NCBI GenBank assembly: GCA_029260215.1
Contig: JAJDDQ010000050.1
Location: forward strand, 1 to 41,236
From: Phycisphaerae bacterium
Lineage (GTDB): Bacteria > Planctomycetota > Phycisphaerae > UBA1845
Direction: 5' to 3'
Length of the DNA stretch: 41,236 bases
Shown: one piece after another, positions 12,644 to 21,840 of the stretch
Numbering within the stretch: the first letter of the stretch is position 1
Layout of the letters: every line of letters starts with the position of its first letter
Notes under the pieces: generated by a model
Told to the model about the DNA's origin: nothing
Database searches by the model: none
Seen by the model: the letters and a program-made list of their open reading frames with translations, nothing else
Position numbers and translations under genes: made by a program

Positions 12644-13474
12644 ATGGCCTTCCGCTCGGAATTGGCTGTTCGCGAGCACCGCATCCCGGCGCCGGGGCTT
12701 CCTGAAGGCGGCGTCGGGCTGCGTATCGCGCAGGTGACGGATTTTCATTTTCGGGGCTGGTCGCCGCTGTTGGACGAGACGCGGCGGTGGCTTCTGCGTC
12801 AGGATTACGACGTCCTGGTCGTGACCGGAGACATCTGTTTCCTGCCCAACAAATGGCGGCAGGCAGCCTCGATGTGCAGGCGATTCTTCGAGGGTATCGA
12901 ACCCCGATTCGGCACGTTCGCGGTTATGGGCAACCATGACAGCCGCCGCCTCGCCGATCAACCGGGGCTTCCGTTTCACTGGCTTCACGACGAACACATC
13001 CGCATCGAGACGGACGATGGCGCGATTCAGCTCGCCGGTGTGGATCAATCGGACGGCTCGCGCGGCGACGTTTCCAAAGCCCTCGCGGGCACATGCGACA
13101 AAACACCGACCGTTCTGCTCGCTCACTACCCGTCAACCGTCTTCGATCTTGAGTCCGTCCACGTGACGGTTCAGTTATCGGGCCATACGCACGGCGGGCA
13201 GATCGTGCTGCCGCGCGTCGGGTGCCTGTTCACCAACGACCGCATCCCGACACAGATGGCCCAGGGCTGCCACCACGTCTCCGATGTCTGGCTTTGCGTG
13301 AGTGCGGGCATTGGCACGTCGGGGCCGAAACCGATGCGTTTCAGGTACCGCTGCCCGGCGGAATTGTCATTTGTGACGCTGGAGGGCGTCGATGCACCCC
13401 AGCCGGCCGTCTCGCGAGAGCGCGTTGAGGTCCGTAAACCGCAGTCCCGCAAAGAATTGGCACAGACCGTTTGA
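12644..13474 (+). CDS. Calcineurin-like metallophosphoesterase (YkuE/LpxG type)
   Basis: A 276-residue metallophosphoesterase with all five motifs: DFH (33-35), GDI (62-64), GNHD (96-99), AHYP (160-163) and GHTHGGQ (180-186). The order and spacing match the YkuE/LpxG-like group, some of which hydrolyse UDP-2,3-diacylglucosamine in lipid A synthesis. Unlike many members it has no N-terminal membrane anchor. GGGGA 7 nt before the ATG supports the start. The basic tail (residues 250-276) is not part of the fold. Confidence 0.85.
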   Translation: MAFRSELAVREHRIPAPGLPEGGVGLRIAQVTDFHFRGWSPLLDETRRWLLRQDYDVLVVTGDICFLPNKWRQAASMCRRFFEGIEPRFGTFAVMGNHDSRRLADQPGLPFHWLHDEHIRIETDDGAIQLAGVDQSDGSRGDVSKALAGTCDKTPTVLLAHYPSTVFDLESVHVTVQLSGHTHGGQIVLPRVGCLFTNDRIPTQMAQGCHHVSDVWLCVSAGIGTSGPKPMRFRYRCPAELSFVTLEGVDAPQPAVSRERVEVRKPQSRKELAQTV

Positions 13475-13500
13475 CCGTTGCGAACGCCTCGACCTATACT
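13471..13500 (+). promoter_or_regulatory. Candidate sigma-70 promoter for the Ser/Thr kinase gene
   Basis: TTGACC (13471-13476), an 18-nt spacer and TATACT (13495-13500). It overlaps the stop of the phosphoesterase gene. It implies a 230-nt leader. The leader contains a 7-bp hairpin (13623-13641) and a longer stem (CCCTGCC at 13696-13702 with GGCAGGG at 13725-13731) that would cover the translation start region. Confidence 0.5.
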
Positions 13501-13738
13501 TAAACGGTAACGCTGCGGTGTGAGCGTCGGGGGACATTATCCCAATAACGGCATTTTCCGTATTTTCCCAATCCGCCGGCCTTCACATTTTGCGATAACT
13601 TTGATGTCTCGCTAACTGGTTCGCGCTCGCTGTTCGAGCGCTGAGTCGCGGTGACAGGCCGCGGTGCGTCTGCTCAATCAAACCCACTTGGGAACCCCTG
13701 CCGCTCGTGGTGGAGGTTTCGGCGGGCAGGGTTCAGCC

Positions 13739-14632
13739 ATGAGTCTGATTCTTCCGGATTACCGCGTCATTCGCGAGCTTGGTCGCGGGGCCAGCAGCCA
13801 GCTTTATTGCGTGGAGGATATCAAGACGGGCGAACTGCGCACCGCGAAGCACATCATCCTCGGCGACGCCGACGAGAAGAAATTCATCGAGCAACTGCGG
13901 GCCGAGCAGGCCACCGGGCAACTCCTGGACCACCCCACCCTGCGAAAAGTCTTCGAGCTGCGCTACATTCGAAAGCGCTTTCGCGTGCAAGCCGCCGTCC
14001 TGATGATGGAGTACGTCGACGGCATCGATATGGGCAGCAGCCAGTTTCGCTGGTCACTTCCGCAACTGCTCAGCTATTTTCGGTCGGCGGCTGAGGGGCT
14101 GTCGGCCATGCACCACCACAAATTCGTACATGCCGACCTCAAACCCGGCAATCTCATGGTCACGCCGAGCGACGAGGTCAAGCTGATCGACTTCGGCCAA
14201 AGCTCGACGCTGTTGCAGGCCAAGGAACGCATTCAGGGCACACCGGACTACATGGCCCCCGAGCAGGCCAAACGTTCCGTGCTGGATCAGCGGACGGACG
14301 TCTTCGGGTTCGGAGCGACGTTGTACAAGGTTCTCACGGGGATGGCCCTCAAAACCGAGATGAACAAAACAGCGGGCCTGCACCTTGAGGGGCGCATCGG
14401 CAAGCGCGTGACCGAGATGAGTCGCGGCTCGACGGACGAAGTGCCCACCTGCATACTCCGCTTCATTGAGGACTGCTGCCGCGAAGACCCGATGGACCGC
14501 CTATCGGACATGCGCGCGGTAATCAATCGCATCGACCTGAGTCAGACCATTCTCGAGCACCAGGCAGCCAACCGCGAAAAAGAAGAAAAAAAGAAGAAGA
14601 AAAAGAAATCTTCCACGCGATCCGAATCGTGA
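13739..14632 (+). CDS. Hanks-type serine/threonine protein kinase
   Basis: A 297-residue soluble kinase. Glycine loop GRGASS (15-20), ATP-binding Lys37 in TAKHI, catalytic loop HADLKPGN (Asp133), DFG at 151-153 and APE at 173-175 are all present. The HRD Arg is Ala, which usually means activation-loop phosphorylation is not needed. The kinase domain fills the protein. It ends in a highly charged tail with a run of lysines (after residue 280) that could bind nucleic acid or membrane. There is no transmembrane helix or sensor domain. The frame upstream of 13739 is leader sequence. Confidence 0.9.
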   Translation: MSLILPDYRVIRELGRGASSQLYCVEDIKTGELRTAKHIILGDADEKKFIEQLRAEQATGQLLDHPTLRKVFELRYIRKRFRVQAAVLMMEYVDGIDMGSSQFRWSLPQLLSYFRSAAEGLSAMHHHKFVHADLKPGNLMVTPSDEVKLIDFGQSSTLLQAKERIQGTPDYMAPEQAKRSVLDQRTDVFGFGATLYKVLTGMALKTEMNKTAGLHLEGRIGKRVTEMSRGSTDEVPTCILRFIEDCCREDPMDRLSDMRAVINRIDLSQTILEHQAANREKEEKKKKKKKSSTRSES

Positions 14633-14638
14633 GATTCG
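14623..14638. terminator. Small hairpin at the kinase stop, between convergent genes
   Basis: CGAATC/GATTCG with a 4-nt loop encloses the stop codon. It is the only inverted repeat between the convergent stops, so it is a weak bidirectional terminator candidate. Confidence 0.25.
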
Positions 14639-14661
14639 TCTCGTCGCAGGCGAAATAGTTC

Positions 14662-16101
14662 CTATTCCACCGCCGCCTGATCGTCACCGTCGTTCGACTC
14701 CACATTCAGCAGTCGAAATCCCACGTCCGGCGCTCGGCGTGGACGGCCTCCAAAACCTATCGGCTTTGCGAGTGCTCCACCGTCGTCGACACCGTCGTGT
14801 CCGATTGAGTAGATGGCGACATACCCGTCCTTGATCGCGTAGCGCAGCGGCTGCTCGTCGAACGGATCGAGCGGCACGGCGTCGAGGTACTCCGAAACCA
14901 ACTCGTCGAGTGATGTCGGCCACCGACCGTTGTTCAACCGAAACCGTTCCACAGCCATCGCCGTGACGGCACAACGCATCCGGGCCATTCGCGTCGCCAA
15001 GTCTTGGCACGCCCACAGCAATCCGGGCGTCAACGACTGTGCGAGAAAGTACCGCCAGTCGCCCGGAGCATTCGCGTCGAACGCTTTTCCCATTCTCTTG
15101 GCCGCACGAATTACCTGCATATGAGAATCAGAGGCTTCAACCACCGGCGTTATCAATTCGAGTGACTTGGCCAGATTCAGGTCGACGATGCCCCTCAGTG
15201 CCCAGCTCAATGACTTTGGCCAACCTGACCCTGCCCCGGTCATTTTCGCGGTCGTGTCGGTCCCATGTTGTCGCATGTAGGTGTAAATCTCGATTTGAGC
15301 GACCCGTTCACCGGACAAACTCCACTTGATCAGATTGATGTCTGCGCGCTCGGCGAACGCCTGCTGCAATAATTCCAAAGTCGGTGCATCGAATCGGTTC
15401 TGAGCGAGTATGTGCTCCAGCAATTCAGCTGCAAGCGAGTCAACGCGCGCAACCGAGTATACGGACGCCAAGCATCGGCTGTCTTCAAGCGACCGGCCGA
15501 TGTTCAACGTGGTCAACAGGCGACGGACAGCCTGATCCGTGTCGCCACGCCGCGCGTCGCGTTCGGCAGCAATCGCCATTAATCTCGAAGTCGTCCGTAC
15601 GGGCGACAGTTCTGGCAGCATCACCTCAAGCGGATTGCCGCTGTAGTCATGATCGAACCGCCCGCGCGGCATGTCCGCGATCACATCAAGCTCTACGAGC
15701 AACGCTTCGTGATCGGACAAGAGTTCATCCGCCGCCTCGGCCATCTCCTCCGGCCAACGCGCCGGCCAACCCGGCCGCGTCGCCTTCCCAAGCCAGGGAA
15801 GGTCTTTGTTTTTCGAATGCGCTCCGCGGAACGCTCGCAATTGGTCGGCGACGGCCAATATCACGCGCGCCGAATTCTCGTCATCCGGTAACGGCGGCAA
15901 TTCGGCCAGCCATTCTTCAAATGTCAGTGCACCACCGGCTTCGCGAATCCGTTCGATCTCCGGTGCCAACGCCGCCCGCCCCATGTGCAGCGTCACACCG
16001 ATCGCGACCGACAAGAGAATCGCAACGGCAACCAGCACGCAAACGATCGACAATATCCACTTCCCCACCGTCGAGCGACGCACGCTTTTGTTTTCACTCA
16101 T
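14662..16101 (-). CDS. Planctomycete membrane protein with a pseudopilin-like C-terminal motif
   Basis: A 479-residue protein with one N-terminal transmembrane helix (about 14-36) and a long, mostly helical extracytoplasmic part. The last 90 residues carry a pattern seen at the C-terminus of GspG-like pseudopilins: RLNNGRWPTSLDELV, then VPLDPFDEQPLRYAIKDGYVAIYSIGHDGVDDGG. In pseudopilins that segment forms the calcium-binding end. The protein lacks the prepilin leader, so it is a membrane-anchored relative rather than a pilin. It lies downstream of the MNIO cluster on the same strand but beyond a large palindrome. The function is unknown. Confidence 0.65.
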   Translation of the reverse strand: MSENKSVRRSTVGKWILSIVCVLVAVAILLSVAIGVTLHMGRAALAPEIERIREAGGALTFEEWLAELPPLPDDENSARVILAVADQLRAFRGAHSKNKDLPWLGKATRPGWPARWPEEMAEAADELLSDHEALLVELDVIADMPRGRFDHDYSGNPLEVMLPELSPVRTTSRLMAIAAERDARRGDTDQAVRRLLTTLNIGRSLEDSRCLASVYSVARVDSLAAELLEHILAQNRFDAPTLELLQQAFAERADINLIKWSLSGERVAQIEIYTYMRQHGTDTTAKMTGAGSGWPKSLSWALRGIVDLNLAKSLELITPVVEASDSHMQVIRAAKRMGKAFDANAPGDWRYFLAQSLTPGLLWACQDLATRMARMRCAVTAMAVERFRLNNGRWPTSLDELVSEYLDAVPLDPFDEQPLRYAIKDGYVAIYSIGHDGVDDGGALAKPIGFGGRPRRAPDVGFRLLNVESNDGDDQAAVE

Positions 16102-16204
16102 CGCGGCTGATCTCCATGACTACCAACCCCATCATACGGAAACCACTCGCCGAAACATCAAGATGACGCAGGCGAGACGATTGCTGTCCGACTGTCGCCT
16201 GCTT

Positions 16205-16300
16205 GTGTGGCACCGGTTTTCAACCGGTGCAAACGATGGTGTTCCGCGTGGCAATCAAGTCTTGGCCAGTCAACACACAGGTTGAAGACGCTTGCCACAC
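16205..16300. repeat. Nested palindrome directly after the MNIO operon
   Basis: The outer arms GTGTGGCA (16205-16212) and TGCCACAC (16293-16300) enclose a perfect hairpin with stem GCACCGGTT-like at 16210-16230, plus a GGTTGAAGAC that echoes the hairpin loop. The right arm touches the stop codon of the DUF2063-like gene. It probably ends that transcript and also looks like a small mobile palindrome. Confidence 0.6.
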
Positions 16301-17205
16301 TATTCCACGCCAAGGTACAGCACGCCCGCATGCGCCCATCGGGCCAGGGCGATAAGGAATGCCTCGAACGCCTGCGCTTCGTCGGCGAACGTGTCGGGCG
16401 GAGCGGATTCGATGTAGGCGGTGGCCAGCGTGTTCAGATCGGTAAACACACCAGCCGGGGCGGCGGAAATCGCAGCGAACTCTTGCTCGTCAAGCCGAAG
16501 CCAGGCCGGCATCAGGTTGGCGGGCGAACGACCACAGACGGTTAGACACACGTTGGCGGGCGGCAGCGCGTCGGGAAGCGCGCCATCCTCGTGCCACGTC
16601 TCGTGGATGGATAGAACGTCGTGAGTGTAGCGTTTGGGAACGATGTACGGCGGGCGGGCCACCGGCTTGGCGAGTAAATCACCCACGGACAGTTCAGCCA
16701 ACTCGGCTACGTCAATCGCTCGGCCTGCGAAATCAAGCGCGTAGAAAACATCCAGCTCGGTACGCTCGAAATTGATCAGGTCAACCAAGCCAGGCCAAGC
16801 GTCGGTAAGATCGCGTAGGTGCTCAAGTGCGTAGGATTGAAAATTAGCAGCCAACGCGCGCTGCGACGAGTTGTGCCACGGCCGCGTGCGGTGCAGGTCG
16901 CGGGTGAGGTCGTACAGGATGTCGCCCTCGTCGCGCGCCTCGCCGCCAATGCGTTTCAGACGAACGACAGCCTCAAGCGACTTCGGGAAAATCCAGCGCA
17001 ACATGCCGCGCTCACCAGCGAACACCAGATTCGTGTAAACGCCCATGCGCTCGGGCGGCACGTTGGCAAGGTCGGCAATCTCTGTCTCGGTCAAATCGGG
17101 AAAACGCTCGTGCAAGCAGGCTCTGCGCGCTGCGAGGCCTCCGTCCGGAGGCGCGTCGTCGAGAATCAGCGTGCGCATGGCTGACAGCAGATCAGGCAGT
17201 GACAT
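16300..17205 (-). CDS. DUF2063-like partner of the MNIO enzyme (BufC/HvfC type)
   Basis: A 301-residue protein placed with DUF2063 by the N-terminal part (ERMGVYTNLVFAGERGMLRWIFPKSLEAV), which resembles the family pattern RxxIYRNN...LxxxFP, and by its position. In bufferin, HvfABC and methanobactin clusters this type of protein binds the precursor and presents it to the MNIO oxidase. The start overlaps the MNIO stop in a TAATG, so the two are made in a fixed ratio. No transmembrane helix is present. The sequence is divergent from the usual family, so the family call rests partly on context. Confidence 0.7.
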   Translation of the reverse strand: MSLPDLLSAMRTLILDDAPPDGGLAARRACLHERFPDLTETEIADLANVPPERMGVYTNLVFAGERGMLRWIFPKSLEAVVRLKRIGGEARDEGDILYDLTRDLHRTRPWHNSSQRALAANFQSYALEHLRDLTDAWPGLVDLINFERTELDVFYALDFAGRAIDVAELAELSVGDLLAKPVARPPYIVPKRYTHDVLSIHETWHEDGALPDALPPANVCLTVCGRSPANLMPAWLRLDEQEFAAISAAPAGVFTDLNTLATAYIESAPPDTFADEAQAFEAFLIALARWAHAGVLYLGVE

Positions 17206-18062
17206 TATCCTGTCACCTTCGTCTGGTGGCTGACCGTTTCGTCCATCAACCGCTGAGCCATCTCTGCTTCCTGAAGAAGGCGATCCAGCGACGGCAACTC
17301 AGCGTCCCATTCGACCAGCACGGACGAAGGCCCGGTGAGTTTGATGACTTCGCGGAAGAGTTCCCACGTGTCGTCGGAGACGGGCTTGGCGTGCGTGTCG
17401 AGGAGCATGTCGCCCTGCTTCTCGAAACCGGCTAAGTGCATCTGCCCGACGCGCTCGAGCGGGATCGTCTCGATAAACGCGATCGGATCGAAGCCGTGAT
17501 TCTTGGAATTGAGCAGCACGTTGGACACGTCAAGCAGCAGGCCGCAATCGGCGGACTCGAGGATTTCCGCGATGAATTGCGGTTCGGTCATTTCTGATTT
17601 GGATACAGTCATGTAGTACGTGACGTTTTCGAGCAGGAACGGTCTTTCCAGGATGTCGCGCACGACGCGGACGCGCTCAGCCACGTTGCGGACAGCTTCG
17701 CGGGTAAAGGGCAACGGAATGAGATCGTTGAGGTTCACATGATCGACCATAGTGAAGCAAAGATGGTCGCTGAACCACGGGCTGCCGATTTCATCGCAGA
17801 ACTGCTTGACGCGACGGACGTGTTCGACGTCCAGCGGATCGGTACTCCCGATCGAGAGTGACACCCCGTGGCCTACGGTCGGATAGTTGGCGCTGATCTT
17901 GCGGAGCGCGTCGGCACAGTACCCGCCCCGTCCGATGAAATTCTCGGGGATGACCTCGAACCAGTTGATGTCCGGCTGCCGGTCGATGATGTCGTCGAAG
18001 TGCTCACGTCGCAGGCCCACGCCCGCGCCGAGCCGCCGGAGTCCGTAGTTGGTATTGCTCAT
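17205..18062 (-). CDS. MNIO-family multinuclear non-haem iron oxidase (DUF692; BufB/HvfB type)
   Basis: A 285-residue TIM-barrel oxidase. Family motifs run in order: GVGLR (15-19), WFEVIPENF (34-42), VGHGVSLS (63-70), SDHLCF (98-103), LLENVTYY (143-150), LLLDVSNV (175-182), NHGFDP (188-193), MHLAGF (208-213), DTHAKPV (222-228) and VEWD (250-253). Likely iron ligands are His65, His100, Glu145, Asp178, His189, His209, Asp222, His224 and Glu251, so the metal site looks complete. Known members (MbnB, BufB, HvfB) oxidise Cys in small precursor peptides to make metal-binding groups. The gene lies between a Cys-repeat precursor and a DUF2063-like partner, which points to the same chemistry here. Confidence 0.9.
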   Translation of the reverse strand: MSNTNYGLRRLGAGVGLRREHFDDIIDRQPDINWFEVIPENFIGRGGYCADALRKISANYPTVGHGVSLSIGSTDPLDVEHVRRVKQFCDEIGSPWFSDHLCFTMVDHVNLNDLIPLPFTREAVRNVAERVRVVRDILERPFLLENVTYYMTVSKSEMTEPQFIAEILESADCGLLLDVSNVLLNSKNHGFDPIAFIETIPLERVGQMHLAGFEKQGDMLLDTHAKPVSDDTWELFREVIKLTGPSSVLVEWDAELPSLDRLLQEAEMAQRLMDETVSHQTKVTG

Positions 18063-18122
18063 GGTGGGATTCTAACCGGTGCGGGCGAATTGTCCGCCGC
18101 TGCGACACACCATCGGCATCCG

Positions 18123-18163
18123 AAAAACCACGGGGTCGCCGCGGACGAACCCGCGACGACCCC
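18123..18163 (-). terminator. Intrinsic terminator/attenuator between precursor and MNIO genes
   Basis: On the minus strand, a stem of 7 plus 5 bp (GGGGTCG/CGACCCC, one mismatch, then CGCGG/CCGCG) with a 6-nt loop is followed 5 nt later by TTTTT. It starts 50 nt after the precursor stop and ends 61 nt before the MNIO start. Partial readthrough would give more precursor than enzyme. Confidence 0.65.
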
Positions 18164-18212
18164 GAAATGTCTGTCTTGTGCATCAGATGATGCGCAATCT
18201 CAGGCGGGCGGG

Positions 18213-18304
18213 CTACTTCTTGTCGCCACCGCACTTCTTGTCGCCGCCACATTTCTTATCACCACCGCACTTTTTGTCACCGCCACACTTCTTGTCGCCG
18301 CCAG
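18213..18304. repeat. 18-bp tandem repeat coding CGGDKK
   Basis: Five units of a Gly-Gly-Asp-Lys-Lys(-Cys) repeat lie in tandem. They vary only at third codon positions (for example GGC/GGT, AAG/AAA, GAC/GAT), so selection has kept the peptide while the DNA drifted. Confidence 0.85.
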
Positions 18305-18449
18305 CCTTCATCTGGCAGGAGGAGCAGGAAGAGCACTTCTTCGTCGATGCGCAACCGGTCGTGCTGAGTGTCGTAAGCGCCGCGCCGGAAATGAAAGCAC
18401 CGACCGCGAGAGACCTGATACCGTTGAATGCGAGTTTCTTCATGTTCAT
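18213..18449 (-). CDS. Exported Cys-repeat precursor peptide of the MNIO cluster
   Basis: A 78-residue peptide with a basic start, a hydrophobic signal (about 11-28) and a possible lipobox (TTGC, Cys33). The mature part has three spaced Cys (39, 42, 45: KKCSSCSSC) and then an exact six-residue repeat, CGGDKK, with Cys at 55, 61, 67 and 73. HvfA-type precursors carry repeated EGKCGG-like motifs, and this is the same theme with Asp-Lys-Lys. AAGGA about 12 nt before the ATG supports the start; a second ATG at codon 3 is possible. It is first in a precursor-oxidase-partner order. I infer a secreted or lipid-anchored copper(I) buffering RiPP. The metal and the modified residues are not shown by sequence. 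Confidence 0.8.
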   Translation of the reverse strand: MNMKKLAFNGIRSLAVGAFISGAALTTLSTTGCASTKKCSSCSSCQMKAGGDKKCGGDKKCGGDKKCGGDKKCGGDKK

Positions 18450-18507
18450 GGATTCAAATTCCTTTTTTTGACTATGAAACGTTTCTACACCGATTCGACA
18501 TTTCGTC

Positions 18508-18527
18508 GGCCGACACGTCCGTCGGCC
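18508..18527. promoter_or_regulatory. Perfect hairpin upstream of the precursor gene
   Basis: GGCCGAC and GTCGGCC form a 7-bp stem with a 6-nt loop about 60 nt before the precursor start. It may be an operator or a leader hairpin. The remaining upstream 180 bp show no clear promoter. Confidence 0.35.
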
Positions 18528-18705
18528 TGAACGCCAACCGTCGTACGTCGCGTTTTGTTACCTTGTTCGTCGCGAATGGTCGCCGACCCTGACAAATCCT
18601 CCGCGCTTTCCGTATTGTGACTCAGCCACGCCGTTCCCGCAACCATCGCGCTCGATGAGGTAAAACACCCATTCGCCACGTGGTTCAGCACCTTGCGAAA
18701 CCCTT

Positions 18706-20430
18706 CTAATACCCGGATGGACGCCCACCCTTGCGCGGATCGGAGACACCGACCCATCCTTCCGGTGTGCGTTGGATGGCTTGCACGATGCCCGTACGGC
18801 GTTTCTCCGAAATAGTGTGGCCGCTGGTGGAAATCGCGCGTTCAAGGTTATCAGGCGGGGCTTCGTCGAAAAAAACCATGTTTGGCTGCCACTGATGGTG
18901 GATGCGCGGAGCTTCGACCGCCTCCGGGAGCGACTTGCCGTTGTGCAAAACGTTGCGCAACACGTTGAGCACGGAACTGATGATTCTCGGCCCGCCGGAA
19001 GCGCCGAGCATCATGTAAGGTTGGCCATCGCGCAGGACGATCGTCGGGCTCATGCTGGAAAGCGGGCGTTTGCCGGGTTCGGGAGCGTTTCGGTCAGACT
19101 GCGTCAGGCCGTAGGCATTGGGCCGGCCGGGATGGGTAGTGAAATCATCCATCTCGTTGTTGAGGACAACACCCCATTCGTCGACAGCGGCCAACGAACC
19201 GAAAGCGGTGTTGATGGTCTCGGTGGCCACCACGACGTTTCCCCATCTGTCGACGATACAATAGTGACTCGTGCCGGCATCGACGGGCAGGGGAAGTTTG
19301 TTGGGCGGAATCGCTGCGTCCCTGAGTTGGGTCGATCCGTAGTCATCCGCGTTGGGTAGCGGCGTCCTTCCGACGCGCGCAGCCAGAGACCACGCGTAGG
19401 CTTTGGACGTGAGTGTATCGACAGGCACGTCGGCGAAATCGGTGTCCGCCATCCAGCGTGAGCGGTCGGCGAATGCGTGCTTCATGGCTTCGATGAACGC
19501 ATGCGGGCCGGGGGGTTCGAGCGTGACGGCTTCGAGGATGTTAAGCGTTTCGAGGATGGTCGTTCCGCCCGACGAGGGCGATGGCATGGTGATCAGTGTG
19601 TAATCGTCGTACAGGCCGACAAGCGGTTCCCGCTTCTTGACTTTGTAGTGGGCGAGATCATCGACAGTCACGATGCCGCCGTGGTCACGCATGGTTCGCG
19701 CAAACGCAGTGGCGAAATCTCCGGTGTAGAAGAACTCGGGGCCTTCAGTCGCCAACCGTTCGAGAAATCGTTCAAGCCTGGGCTGACGCAATTGGGTACC
19801 GAGCGCGGGCAGCGTACCGCCGCCGAGGTGCAAGTCGTACACGTATCGGCAGGACTCTATGAGCGAGGGGTCGGTTTCGTATTGGCCCAGCGCGTTTTCG
19901 GCGGAATCGAGGTAGTGGGCGTCGATTGGGAACCCGTCGCCTGCCAAACGAATGGCCGGTCGCAGGACGCGCTGCCACGACATGGTCCCGTATCGTTTGA
20001 GCGCTTCGGCTTGACCGGCTACCTGACCGGGTACAGCCACGGCGAGATACCCGTTGCGACTGGGGCTGAGTCGTGCGCGTTCGCCAGTGGCTGCTCGGAC
20101 GAACATATCCGGCGTCGCCGCAGCCGGTGCGGATTCGCGATAGTCGAGCACAACCGTTCGGCCATCGGCGAAGCGGATAATCATGAACCCACCGCCGCCG
20201 CACCCCGTGCTGTTGGGACGGGTGACACCGAGTGCGAAAGAAACAGCCGCGGCTGCATCGACGGCGTTGCCCCCGGCGCGCAGGATTTCAACGCCGGCCC
20301 GCGAAGCATACGCGGAGTCCGTCGCGACCATGGCCTGCTTTCCGACGGCGACCCACGTTTGTTGCGGCGCACGGCAGGCAGTGAGGCTGAGCGTGGCGAT
20401 TGAAGCAAGTGCAAGGTAATGGCGCATCAT
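18706..20430 (-). CDS. ggt: Gamma-glutamyltransferase (lipoprotein form)
   Basis: A 574-residue N-terminal-nucleophile hydrolase that removes or transfers the gamma-glutamyl group of glutathione-like peptides and cleaves itself into two subunits. The nucleophile is Thr387 in GTSHYCIVD, where most family members have TTH. Other hallmarks are SAYASRAGVEILRAGGNAVDAA, the FGS turn, and PLSSMSPT with its oxyanion Ser pair. The ATG at 20430 gives a lipoprotein signal (SLTAC, Cys19); the open frame upstream to 20565 lacks coding character. The gene precedes the Cys-rich peptide locus on the same strand with a 256-bp gap. A link (cysteine supply) would be speculative. Confidence 0.92.
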   Translation of the reverse strand: MMRHYLALASIATLSLTACRAPQQTWVAVGKQAMVATDSAYASRAGVEILRAGGNAVDAAAAVSFALGVTRPNSTGCGGGGFMIIRFADGRTVVLDYRESAPAAATPDMFVRAATGERARLSPSRNGYLAVAVPGQVAGQAEALKRYGTMSWQRVLRPAIRLAGDGFPIDAHYLDSAENALGQYETDPSLIESCRYVYDLHLGGGTLPALGTQLRQPRLERFLERLATEGPEFFYTGDFATAFARTMRDHGGIVTVDDLAHYKVKKREPLVGLYDDYTLITMPSPSSGGTTILETLNILEAVTLEPPGPHAFIEAMKHAFADRSRWMADTDFADVPVDTLTSKAYAWSLAARVGRTPLPNADDYGSTQLRDAAIPPNKLPLPVDAGTSHYCIVDRWGNVVVATETINTAFGSLAAVDEWGVVLNNEMDDFTTHPGRPNAYGLTQSDRNAPEPGKRPLSSMSPTIVLRDGQPYMMLGASGGPRIISSVLNVLRNVLHNGKSLPEAVEAPRIHHQWQPNMVFFDEAPPDNLERAISTSGHTISEKRRTGIVQAIQRTPEGWVGVSDPRKGGRPSGY

Positions 20431-20552
20431 GCATGGCGATTCTAAGGCGAATTCGATGCGCGCGTAGTGGTTGGCGGTTGCTACTTTGGAAAATCCGCGC
20501 GAACTGAAATTCGCGGATCGCAACGCATTGGATTGAGAATGCTCTAATATCT

Positions 20553-20681
20553 TGTCACAACTCAATTGACGGGTTGGGTCCCCTACGGCTTTAGCCGTGG
20601 GAGAGTCGAATCCAAGGGACTATTCGATTCCCCCACCTCTGAAGAGATGGGGCACCCGCGCGTGATTTCAGGCTTGACAAA
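20553..20681. repeat. IS200/IS605-like palindromic repeat, copy 1
   Basis: 129 bp aligned along its length with 21925-22052 in the same orientation. It folds as a cloverleaf: outer arms GGGTCCCC/GGGGCACCC, an inner hairpin ACGGCTTTAGCCGT, a central TCGAAT/ATTCGA pair, and a second hairpin ACCTCTGAAGAGAT. The TTTAGCC hairpin resembles the end hairpins of IS200/IS605 elements. It ends 2 bp from the stop of the coiled-coil gene. Confidence 0.75.
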
Positions 20682-20683
20682 GC

Positions 20684-21679
20684 TCAGTCGTCGGCGATGA
20701 GACGCTTGCGCTCTTTGGTGTAGGAATCGAGAGCTCGCTTGGATTGCTCAACTTTTTCCTCGATGTGTCCGATCAAATCCACCACGTCTCGCTCGATGGG
20801 ATGGCCCGAGTCGGCAAAGTGGACAGCCCACTGCTCCCAGCCTTTGGTCAGCTCTTCGCTGTAGAGGTGCTCGATCACGGGGACGTAGCGATTGATTTCG
20901 AGATCGTGGTGCGCGTCCGAGCCGGTGTCCATGTCGGTCAAACGCTCGTGCAGCCTGCGCAATCCGTCGCGAACGTTGCTTACGTGACCTTTGGCACCGT
21001 GGGCTTTGAGCGTGTTCCAACCAGCCGCCACCATCGGAGCCCCTCGCACAAAAATCTGGTTCTTGCGCGCTCGGGAAAGTGCCCGGCTCATGGTCTGCAA
21101 GCGCTTGGCCACGTTTTCCGCCGCCTCCAACGCGCGCTTGGCGGTACGCGATTGCTCGGACGCCCATTCAGCGTACCCCGCGACTTCCGCGAGTTTTTTC
21201 GCACGCTCATCGTCGCCTGCTAGGATCGCCTGTTCGCGCGTGGCGAGGGCGTCTTCAAACTCCTGCTCCACATCGCTCAGCCCACCCAACTCCTGTTCGA
21301 GCTGCTGGGCACGGGCGTAGAGTGAGTCGAGCGTGCGTTCGACGTCATGAAACTCAGTCTGAATGGCGGCCTGCTCGTTCTGCATCTCCCGAATTTTGAC
21401 TTCCTTGCCGCCGAACAGAGCGTGCATGAGTCCGGTAAGCGTCGGGCGTTGAAGCGTGTCGATATCGTCCTCCACGGCTTCGAGCGCGACCTGAAGCCGG
21501 CGAAGGTGGTATTCCTCCTGCGTGAGCGAATCCTGATTCCGCACTCGCTCGCCACGCAGGTGGTCACGCTGCTCCAGATTCTCCCGCGCTTGCCTGTAAC
21601 GATCCCCGTGTGATTCGGACAAGGTGACGAACTCCCGATGGCCGTTTGGGTTCTCCGGGCGATACCCCGTATTGAACAT
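20684..21679 (-). CDS. Coiled-coil protein of unknown function
   Basis: A 331-residue soluble protein made almost wholly of heptad-rich helix: about residues 30-100, 110-210 and a last stretch at 300-328. A short hydrophobic break (LTGLMHALFGG) lies near residue 85, and a segment rich in His and Asp (about 245-275) separates the last helix. No enzyme motif is visible. The ATG at 21679 is preferred over the TTG at 21688; neither has a strong ribosome-binding site. The gene is alone between two copies of a palindromic repeat, each close to its border, which suggests it moved or was inserted as a unit. The sequence gives no functional clue beyond a scaffolding or oligomerising role. Confidence 0.65.
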   Translation of the reverse strand: MFNTGYRPENPNGHREFVTLSESHGDRYRQARENLEQRDHLRGERVRNQDSLTQEEYHLRRLQVALEAVEDDIDTLQRPTLTGLMHALFGGKEVKIREMQNEQAAIQTEFHDVERTLDSLYARAQQLEQELGGLSDVEQEFEDALATREQAILAGDDERAKKLAEVAGYAEWASEQSRTAKRALEAAENVAKRLQTMSRALSRARKNQIFVRGAPMVAAGWNTLKAHGAKGHVSNVRDGLRRLHERLTDMDTGSDAHHDLEINRYVPVIEHLYSEELTKGWEQWAVHFADSGHPIERDVVDLIGHIEEKVEQSKRALDSYTKERKRLIADD

Positions 21680-21840
21680 TTTCGTCAAGGGTCGCCACGG
21701 GCTTGAAACGGAGAATGGTTACGGGAACACAGCCCGCGGCTTGGAACGTTTGCGGACGGCGTGTGCGTCCGAAAACCAGAGTGTGCGACCGTCATGCCGC
21801 CAGCGCGGCGGTGTCAGAGCGGTCCCAATTCGTGCGCAAC

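Follow-up and report, generated by a model that had tools for sequence, protein, structure and literature searches.

Multinuclear non-heme iron-dependent oxidative enzymes (MNIOs, the DUF692 family) carry out varied chemistry (PMC12452194, Table 1), and the products that they make with PME1-type partners have been unified as 5-thiooxazole captophorins; the characterised ones whose repeats are EGKCG contain 5-thiooxazole and, as a rule, bind copper (PMC13097082). FonA binds copper, FonBC fully modifies a DGKCG variant, and the unit tolerance of FonBC is wide at positions 1 and 2 (no Arg at 1, no Pro), partial at position 3 and restricted to G or A at position 5 (PMC13097082). In HvfA the Sec signal acts as leader and −4 Da 5-thiooxazoles are formed (PMC13419390), while NedA of Neisseria dentiae is a lipidated, tri-acylated oxazolin with −4 Da per motif (PMC12636315). 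Precursors with signal peptides accompany signature-positive partners, the PME-type 1 (PMC12452194), and MNIOs are already known from Planctomycetota, with ChrH-like ones (PMC12636315) and a Pirellula TIGR04222 protein (PMC12452194). Here we describe a conserved MNIO cluster for a ribosomally synthesized and post-translationally modified peptide (RiPP) in another planctomycete, a Phycisphaerae bacterium (assembly GCA_029260215.1, 4.97 Mb, 97% complete), located on contig JAJDDQ010000050.1 within the 41,236-nt stretch that we analysed and call the window. The cluster probably makes a lipoprotein captophorin, a 5-thiooxazole RiPP, with Lys-Cys (EGKCG-like) hexad units.

The locus shares its gene order, a precursor signal peptide, and an MNIO whose partner has parts like DUF2063 and like a RiPP recognition element (RRE) with the oxazolin/HvfABC, fontiphorin FonABC and gonophorin systems. 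With the EGKCG captophorins it has in common an Arg-Arg pair in the MNIO and tandem units whose Cys is preceded by a basic residue and followed by Gly; the unit, however, is the hexad GDKKCG in place of the pentad EGKCG, the MNIO scores above the BufB and below the HvfB cut-off, and the partner stays below the DUF2063 cut-off. Unlike the HvfABCX operon, it has no DoxX among the five flanking proteins scanned. NedABC likewise combines a Lys-Cys repeat precursor bearing a lipoprotein signal with an MNIO and a partner, but has three EGKCG motifs and belongs to Pseudomonadota (PMC12636315). The bufferins Buf1 (DUF2282) and Buf2 share the BufB-type MNIO and the export signal, whereas the precursor here is without DUF2282 or a CKG-type motif. 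PME-type 2 partners, too, combine a DUF2063-like and an RRE-like fold and fall short of the Pfam signature, yet here such a sub-threshold partner is paired with a signal-peptide precursor, which the same study ties to PME-type 1 (PMC12452194).

The first-pass annotation of this DNA had proposed a new precursor class. This was too strong, because D-K-K-C-G fits the Lys-Cys (EGKCG) group, relatives with EKSCG/DKSCG pentads (in genomes G438 and G462; G and L numbers denote our genomes and loci) link the hexads to that group, and the lipidated NedA has already been published (PMC12636315). In the partly available literature on MNIO, DUF692, bufferin or captophorin together with Planctomycetota, we found neither the hexad branch nor its unlinked precursors nor the partner subtype, although branch members may sit among the hundreds of unclassified signal-peptide precursors in the supplementary table of PMC12452194. 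What we describe is thus a new-looking hexad-repeat branch of a recently described copper-handling peptide family.

The repeat precursor, the MNIO and the partner

The three genes follow one another on the minus strand as precursor, MNIO and partner (Table 1), and both the coordinates and the domain matches bear out the bufferin/HvfABC order that had been reported for them. The precursor is a 78-residue peptide with an export signal and eight cysteines (positions 33, 39, 42, 45, 55, 61, 67 and 73), as first annotated, and GGDKK directly precedes its four exact CGGDKK units. It matches no Pfam or NCBIfam family at E up to 1. The DUF2282 domain that marks Buf1 is absent at the same threshold in Pfam, the unit CGGDKK stands where Buf_EGKCG/oxazolin precursors have repeated EGKCG pentads, and the 6- or 12-Cys Cys-Lys (CKG) motifs of Buf2 are absent when the peptide is read against the Buf2-like precursors of the class. 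The DKKCGG units, with a basic residue before Cys and a small one after it, place the peptide in the broad Lys-Cys captophorin group, a pattern that relatives' repeats with KGC or KSC fit more loosely.

The six-residue repeat is exact in the protein, as had been noted, but the corresponding DNA is not, since 12 of 18 codons differ between adjacent units, every change being synonymous; in G033 the figure is 13 of 18, again all synonymous. Such purely synonymous divergence indicates that selection maintains the peptide repeat, and the unlikeness of adjacent DNA units makes recent slippage of the 18-bp repeat, by which it had been suggested that the unit count could vary, unlikely. To the eye, units separated by one other resemble each other more, so that past copying, if any, perhaps proceeded by 36 bp. 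Other members have some non-synonymous change between units, the extreme being G060 with eight non-synonymous against four synonymous. A degenerate DNA pattern for the repeat has three overlapping matches, all in the precursor gene and nowhere else in the genome, and the reversed pattern has none; with this uniqueness and with the recurrence of the gene beside orthologous MNIOs, the cluster is not a chance arrangement.

Across the ten precursors of the order, M1, A7, F8, G32, C33 and the repeat cysteines 55, 61 and 67 are invariant and C73 is nearly so. The stretch from C33 to the repeat differs among members in its length and number of Cys and is free of Cys in G096, and therefore the KKCSSCSSC block, put forward earlier as part of the class, is not a family trait. 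The AlphaFold model of the precursor (pLDDT 43) has no usable fold and neither supports nor excludes the beta-helix proposed for some EGKCG proteins. Kinship with SbtA, the radical-SAM thiooxazole precursors, was considered and rejected: one of ten precursors (one of those at L002, L004 and L018) matched TIGR04081 at E 0.02, which we take as chance, and a follow-up of ten named proteins, to which that precursor did not belong, gave no such match.

The MNIO (285 residues) is the single PF05114 gene of the genome (342 bits, cut-off 25), scoring above the cut-off of the BufB model NF050167 MNIO_BufB (322.5 bits against 310) and below that of the HvfB model (280 bits against 360). The complete set of metal ligands attributed to it is upheld, as N181, D222, H224, D253 (of EWD) and the other ligand or catalytic positions are invariant in all 16 aligned MNIOs. 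Mapped through 3BWW, a close HvfB homologue, N181, D222 and H224 equal the HvfB ligands N175, D242 and H244 (PMC13419390), and D253 is taken, by motif and not by a FonB alignment, as the catalytic D249 of FonB (PMC13097082).

Near its start the MNIO carries R18-R19 (GLRRxH), an Arg-Arg pair also present in 3BWW, which we take as Arg15-Arg16 of FonB, thought to contact the acidic residue at unit position 1. Of 15 MNIOs with precursors of the Lys-Cys type, 13 carry the pair, against none of the MNIOs at 11 planctomycete Buf2 Cys-Lys loci, which have LRT, LRI or LRV in place of LRR (Fisher p 2e-5). This count includes G462, with its unlinked precursor, as Lys-Cys type and leaves out G170, where no Buf2 gene is visible at the MNIO; G438 (LRR; precursor recognised later), the second MNIO of G580 (LRR), G611 (LRS; an NGCGG repeat with no Lys or acid) and two plasmid loci with Buf2-like precursors, L118 (LRS) and L125 (LRK), also stand outside it. 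A quickly computed tree puts the ten order MNIOs on one side of a branch (SH-aLRT 92, or 98 with the G764 MNIO added), and a second tree splits 15 Lys-Cys-type enzymes from 12 Buf2-type ones (SH-aLRT 94). The method has no bootstrap, the long branches G480, G627 and P_L124 are unsure, and the first tree labelled G170 as Buf2 and the G764 enzyme as 'other', whereas the second used corrected labels.

The partner (301 residues) had been described as a divergent DUF2063-like protein joined to the MNIO through a TAATG overlap, and this is confirmed by the single shared nucleotide and by scores below cut-off for DUF2063 (17.5 bits against 27.2), the PME-type 1 signature, and for HvfC (26.9 bits against 142). 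Among 11 family members, our own included, DUF2063 gives eight weak matches at E up to 0.1 (best 0.0014) and none in three, and the G480 partner passes with 37.5 bits. A PDB sequence search with the partner returned a chance match only. Its AlphaFold model from 11 sequences (mean pLDDT 89.8) has two Foldseek matches at E 0.001 or better, both to TglI, and VIA-align gives Z 15.2 and 15.0 for TglI and 14.3 over 199 residues for NGO1945 (3DEE). For residues ~165-301, the RRE-bearing TbtB (Z 7.6) and PqqD (Z 4.9) appear mixed among unrelated proteins, in a range (Z at most 7.6) in which chance arrangements are frequent. Because the model matches TglI and 3DEE far above the other rows, the protein is in all likelihood a partner of the MNIO composed of a DUF2063-like and an RRE-like part, and this order is an exception to the published pairing of signal-peptide precursors with signature-positive partners. 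In all ten order loci no more than 27 nt separate the partner start from the MNIO end. The G096 partner (L018, 842-1453, minus; L013, from 4846, plus) is interrupted by an in-frame stop that follows residue 203, beyond which homology continues in the same frame; this may be decay, read-through or an assembly error.

Table 1. Positions of the cluster features in the window
Feature	Positions	Strand	Description
Precursor of the RiPP	18213-18449	−	signal peptide/leader over roughly residues 1-32, then the probable lipobox STTG-C33, the CSSCSSC block and the four CGGDKK units
Terminator-like hairpin with T-run	18131-18164	−	between precursor and MNIO; compensatory pairs in 6 species
MNIO maturase, BufB-like	17205-18062	−	PF05114 and NF050167
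MNIO partner	16300-17205	−	DUF2063-like helical part and RRE-like part
Ribosome-binding site region	18450-18469	−	AAAAAAAGGA, ahead of the precursor ATG

The left boundary first given for the locus, 16205, is too far out, as the partner stop lies 95 nt inside it. Immediately upstream of the precursor, on the same strand, lies a gamma-glutamyltranspeptidase gene (18706-20565, minus) with an internal possible start that would lead to a canonical lipobox, LTAC.

Occurrence among relatives

We compared sets of 60 relatives and of 114 genomes of the order, 397 of the class and 392 of a phylum sample (own genome included), with one genome per species. MNIO matches were found in 8 of the 60 relatives, own included. 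The GTDB collection gave eight MNIO loci, seven titled Phycisphaerae, Planctomycetota or planctomycete and one Deltaproteobacteria; a similar Cys-repeat gene lies upstream in six, none in L015, and the contig of L017 starts 126 nt before the MNIO. Viral contigs held no relative. In L015 (G060) we observed by reading a P-type ATPase-like protein with a CPC motif (1-1708, minus), ~2.3 kb before the MNIO and on the opposite strand.

Within the order, BufB scores above cut-off in ten genomes, and the precursor profile A1 matches these ten and one other, G012, which gives a weak match (E 1.2e-5) and has no MNIO. The precursor thus accompanies 10 of 10 over-cut-off BufB genes against one weak match in the 104 other genomes (Fisher p 1.6e-13); as A1 was built from our precursor and seven others of the ten, G053 and G060 are the sole new presences, whereas the absences are independent. 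Three genomes with sub-cut-off MNIOs (G032, G105, G109) have no A1 match. Profile A2 adds two weak matches from the same family, again without an MNIO (G093, E 7.5e-4; G097, E 7.9e-4). In G012 we also observed a small Cys-rich probable lipoprotein (L034, G012:C45, 1498-1707, minus; STGC, CSKDCKGDCKNCSGC), from the same bacterial family. At L021 (G105) and L022 (G109), membrane-protein-like ORFs (open reading frames) with Cys-Gly tails (e.g. CGGGGCGGCGG) overlap the sub-cut-off MNIO genes; we take them to resemble TIGR04222-type precursors.

A Cys-repeat gene had been expected upstream of DUF692 homologues in related genomes, and this is the case in eight of the ten order genomes, with gaps of 102-186 nt. 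In the other two, G053 and G060, the precursor lies elsewhere, on a different contig from the MNIO and far from contig ends. This separation, repeated in G438, G462 and G764, would suit an unmodified, metallothionein-like lipoprotein with an MNIO that acts on another substrate, as would the existence in G012 of a Cys-rich probable lipoprotein without any MNIO. However, over-cut-off MNIO and peptide coincide in all ten order genomes, the linked loci keep the order precursor, then MNIO, and no small ORF with at least 4 Cys lies within ~900 nt upstream of the G053 or G060 MNIO; we give an unmodified peptide very little credence beside a captophorin matured by the cluster's own MNIO.

In the class, strong precursor matches (E below 1e-18) are confined to the ten order genomes. 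BufB passes its cut-off in 21 genomes, and 10 of the 11 outside the order have a Buf2-like Cys-Lys precursor beside the MNIO; at the remaining one, G170, none was seen. One genome, G165, has two separate Buf2-like precursor/MNIO loci (L042, L058). In the phylum sample, 9 of 392 genomes match the precursor at E up to 1e-3, and six of the eight besides our own have an MNIO, which the precursor adjoins in G480, G580 (two in tandem), G611 and G627 and from which it is separated, on another contig, in G438 and G462, where the repeats include EKSCG/DKSCG pentads. G437 and G728 have no MNIO match. At L098 (G580:C29, 828-1420), two different probable lipoproteins with CSGDKS repeats stand in tandem ahead of one MNIO. 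L109 (G728:C4, 7318-7686, minus) encodes a signal-peptide protein with repeated CGGEGKCGG units, an orphan EGKCG-type precursor in a genome without a PF05114 MNIO. A metagenome-assembled genome (MAG) named Deltaproteobacteria (L017, G764; label taken as given) carries a precursor with the lipobox ISGC and KCSG units on a separate contig.

Signals around the precursor gene

A strong hairpin with a T-rich tail lies 3' of the precursor in seven of the eight linked order loci; in G033 the hairpin is present and the T-run absent. Its stability beats 30 of 30 shuffles in six loci and 29 of 30 in G059. The stem can be aligned in six species, with 90.9% of its cells paired (a level that 2 of 500 shuffles reach), ten cells changed on both sides (1 of 500) and a covariation score of 0.48, where shuffles average 0.30 (0 of 500 as high) and slid controls give 0.09-0.20, in a test that is biased in favour of the structure, which was drawn from the same sequences. 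The natural reading is a partial terminator that raises precursor over enzyme, but the hairpin could equally terminate a separate precursor transcript. A sigma-70 scan gave four sites on both strands against 0.6 expected, one of them on the minus strand between hairpin and MNIO (18096-18069), so that the enzyme genes could have their own promoter; the scan gave no minus-strand site ahead of the precursor. Upstream of all ten order precursors stands a GAAAGGA-type 8-mer (at most one mismatch), in ribosome-binding position by eye, whereas shuffled controls reach at most 6-7 of 10. A copper operator or shared promoter motif was sought in the same ten upstream regions and rejected, as the ribosome-binding site alone exceeded the shuffled control.

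Proposed product and its alternatives

In the proposed mechanism, the precursor would be made in excess over the enzymes because a partial terminator separates its gene from theirs. The conserved start of the signal peptide (KKLAF.G..) may double as leader, bound by the RRE-like part of the partner; a Sec signal acting as leader, as in HvfA and in a bufferin study cited with it (PMC13419390), would explain why this start is so well kept. The di-iron centre of the MNIO would oxidise the cysteines of the DKKCGG hexads successively to 5-thiooxazoles, with a mass change of about −4 Da per Cys, or about −16 Da over all four. After Sec export the peptide would be cleaved and lipidated at Cys33 and anchored on a membrane, facing the periplasm, where its soft S/N ligands could bind and buffer copper(I), and the unmodified N-terminal Cys block would perhaps add thiolate sites. 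The unit read as D1-K2-K3-C4-G5 obeys the FonBC rules; CSSCSSC does not.

Whereas the three genes, their conservation, the predicted domains of the partner and the conserved hairpin are observed, the chemistry, metal and lipidation of this product are inferred, and several observations weigh against it. No DoxX and no copper gene occurs in the five flanking window proteins scanned (12644-21688, both next neighbours included), and the 25 Pfam families listed, out of 104 in 60 picked neighbour proteins, include no copper family (a crude gene finder picked 89 ORFs in 12 loci, and 58, plus two small ones, were run against Pfam). In G104, G580 and G764 the residue following Cys is Ser, which FonBC rejects, so that its rules cannot cover the whole branch. 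The Arg-Arg association amounts to one phylogenetically independent contrast, in which G170 was labelled Buf2, and has exceptions among the Lys-Cys types in G104 (LRG) and G764 (LRH); the site of FonB Phe250 is not conserved in the ten order members (A in five, V in two, F in two, S in one). In the hairpin test, two of the five measures (pairs changed on both sides, 5 of 13, and further pair types) are matched by 75 of 500 shuffles. Lipobox patterns are of a strict form, [LVI][ASTVI][GAS]C, and a relaxed one; at the Cys picked by script (an earlier one in G009) the strict form is found in 5 of 17 tabulated precursors and the relaxed in 13, and STTG-C33 itself fits the relaxed form and not the strict one, being without the usual L/V/I at −3.

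The −3 residue is in fact weak (T, Q, S, N or A) in nine of the ten order members, and only subsets of bufferins and oxazolins are described as lipoproteins (PMC12452194 and PMC12636315), both of which would suit a soluble secreted peptide cut by signal peptidase I without lipidation. Nevertheless, a Cys after G, S or A closes the hydrophobic stretch in all 17 precursors (an 18th, G438, has AC), strict boxes occur in G104, G480, one of the two in G580, G627 and G764, and relaxed boxes, SSGC and DSGC, are found in other lipoprotein-like ORFs of this genome; a crude filter applied to 371 kb from this organism (the window plus 20 stretches) marks 17 of 290 ORFs as lipoprotein-like, ten of them with G or A before Cys. 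We therefore regard a soluble peptide as unlikely and lipidation at Cys33 as likely, and the lipoprotein that had been raised as a possibility becomes a probable one.

An MNIO-modified peptide may also serve another metal or stress (iron, zinc, mercury, oxidants) or carry a modification other than 5-thiooxazole. The flanks scanned are without a copper gene, a DUF2282-DUF692 cluster lies beside mer genes in Rhodanobacter, MerC-bufferin fusions have been noted, and MNIO chemistry is varied (PMC12452194). On the other hand, the MNIO scores as BufB, and 5-thiooxazole and, in general, copper binding mark the characterised EGKCG-repeat MNIO-PME1 products (PMC13097082); such a departure in metal or chemistry seems to us improbable, and a copper-binding thiooxazole lipoprotein remains the preferred product.

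Beyond the single locus, a wider picture is conceivable and put forward only tentatively as a whole: a branch of lipidated captophorins that crosses phyla (Planctomycetota and the one MAG named Deltaproteobacteria) and has (D/E)K-x-C-(G/S) units of 5 or 6 residues, in which one MNIO-partner pair would modify a membrane-anchored two-zone metal trap of thiooxazole repeat and free thiolate block, modification would occur in trans in several genomes, on precursors with genes elsewhere, and an attenuating hairpin would set the precursor-to-enzyme ratio in the linked order loci.

The cluster would extend copper-buffering thiooxazole peptides to a planctomycete branch. Published substrate rules could be tested on the variants that occur naturally in its units, with D or E as residue 1, K, G or S ahead of Cys and G or S behind it, and in its enzymes, with A, V, F or S at the FonB-Phe250 site. 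The order is of interest as an exception to the published link of signal-peptide precursors with signature-positive partners, and several of the genomes show precursors unlinked from their MNIO, which are missed by neighbourhood-based genome mining.

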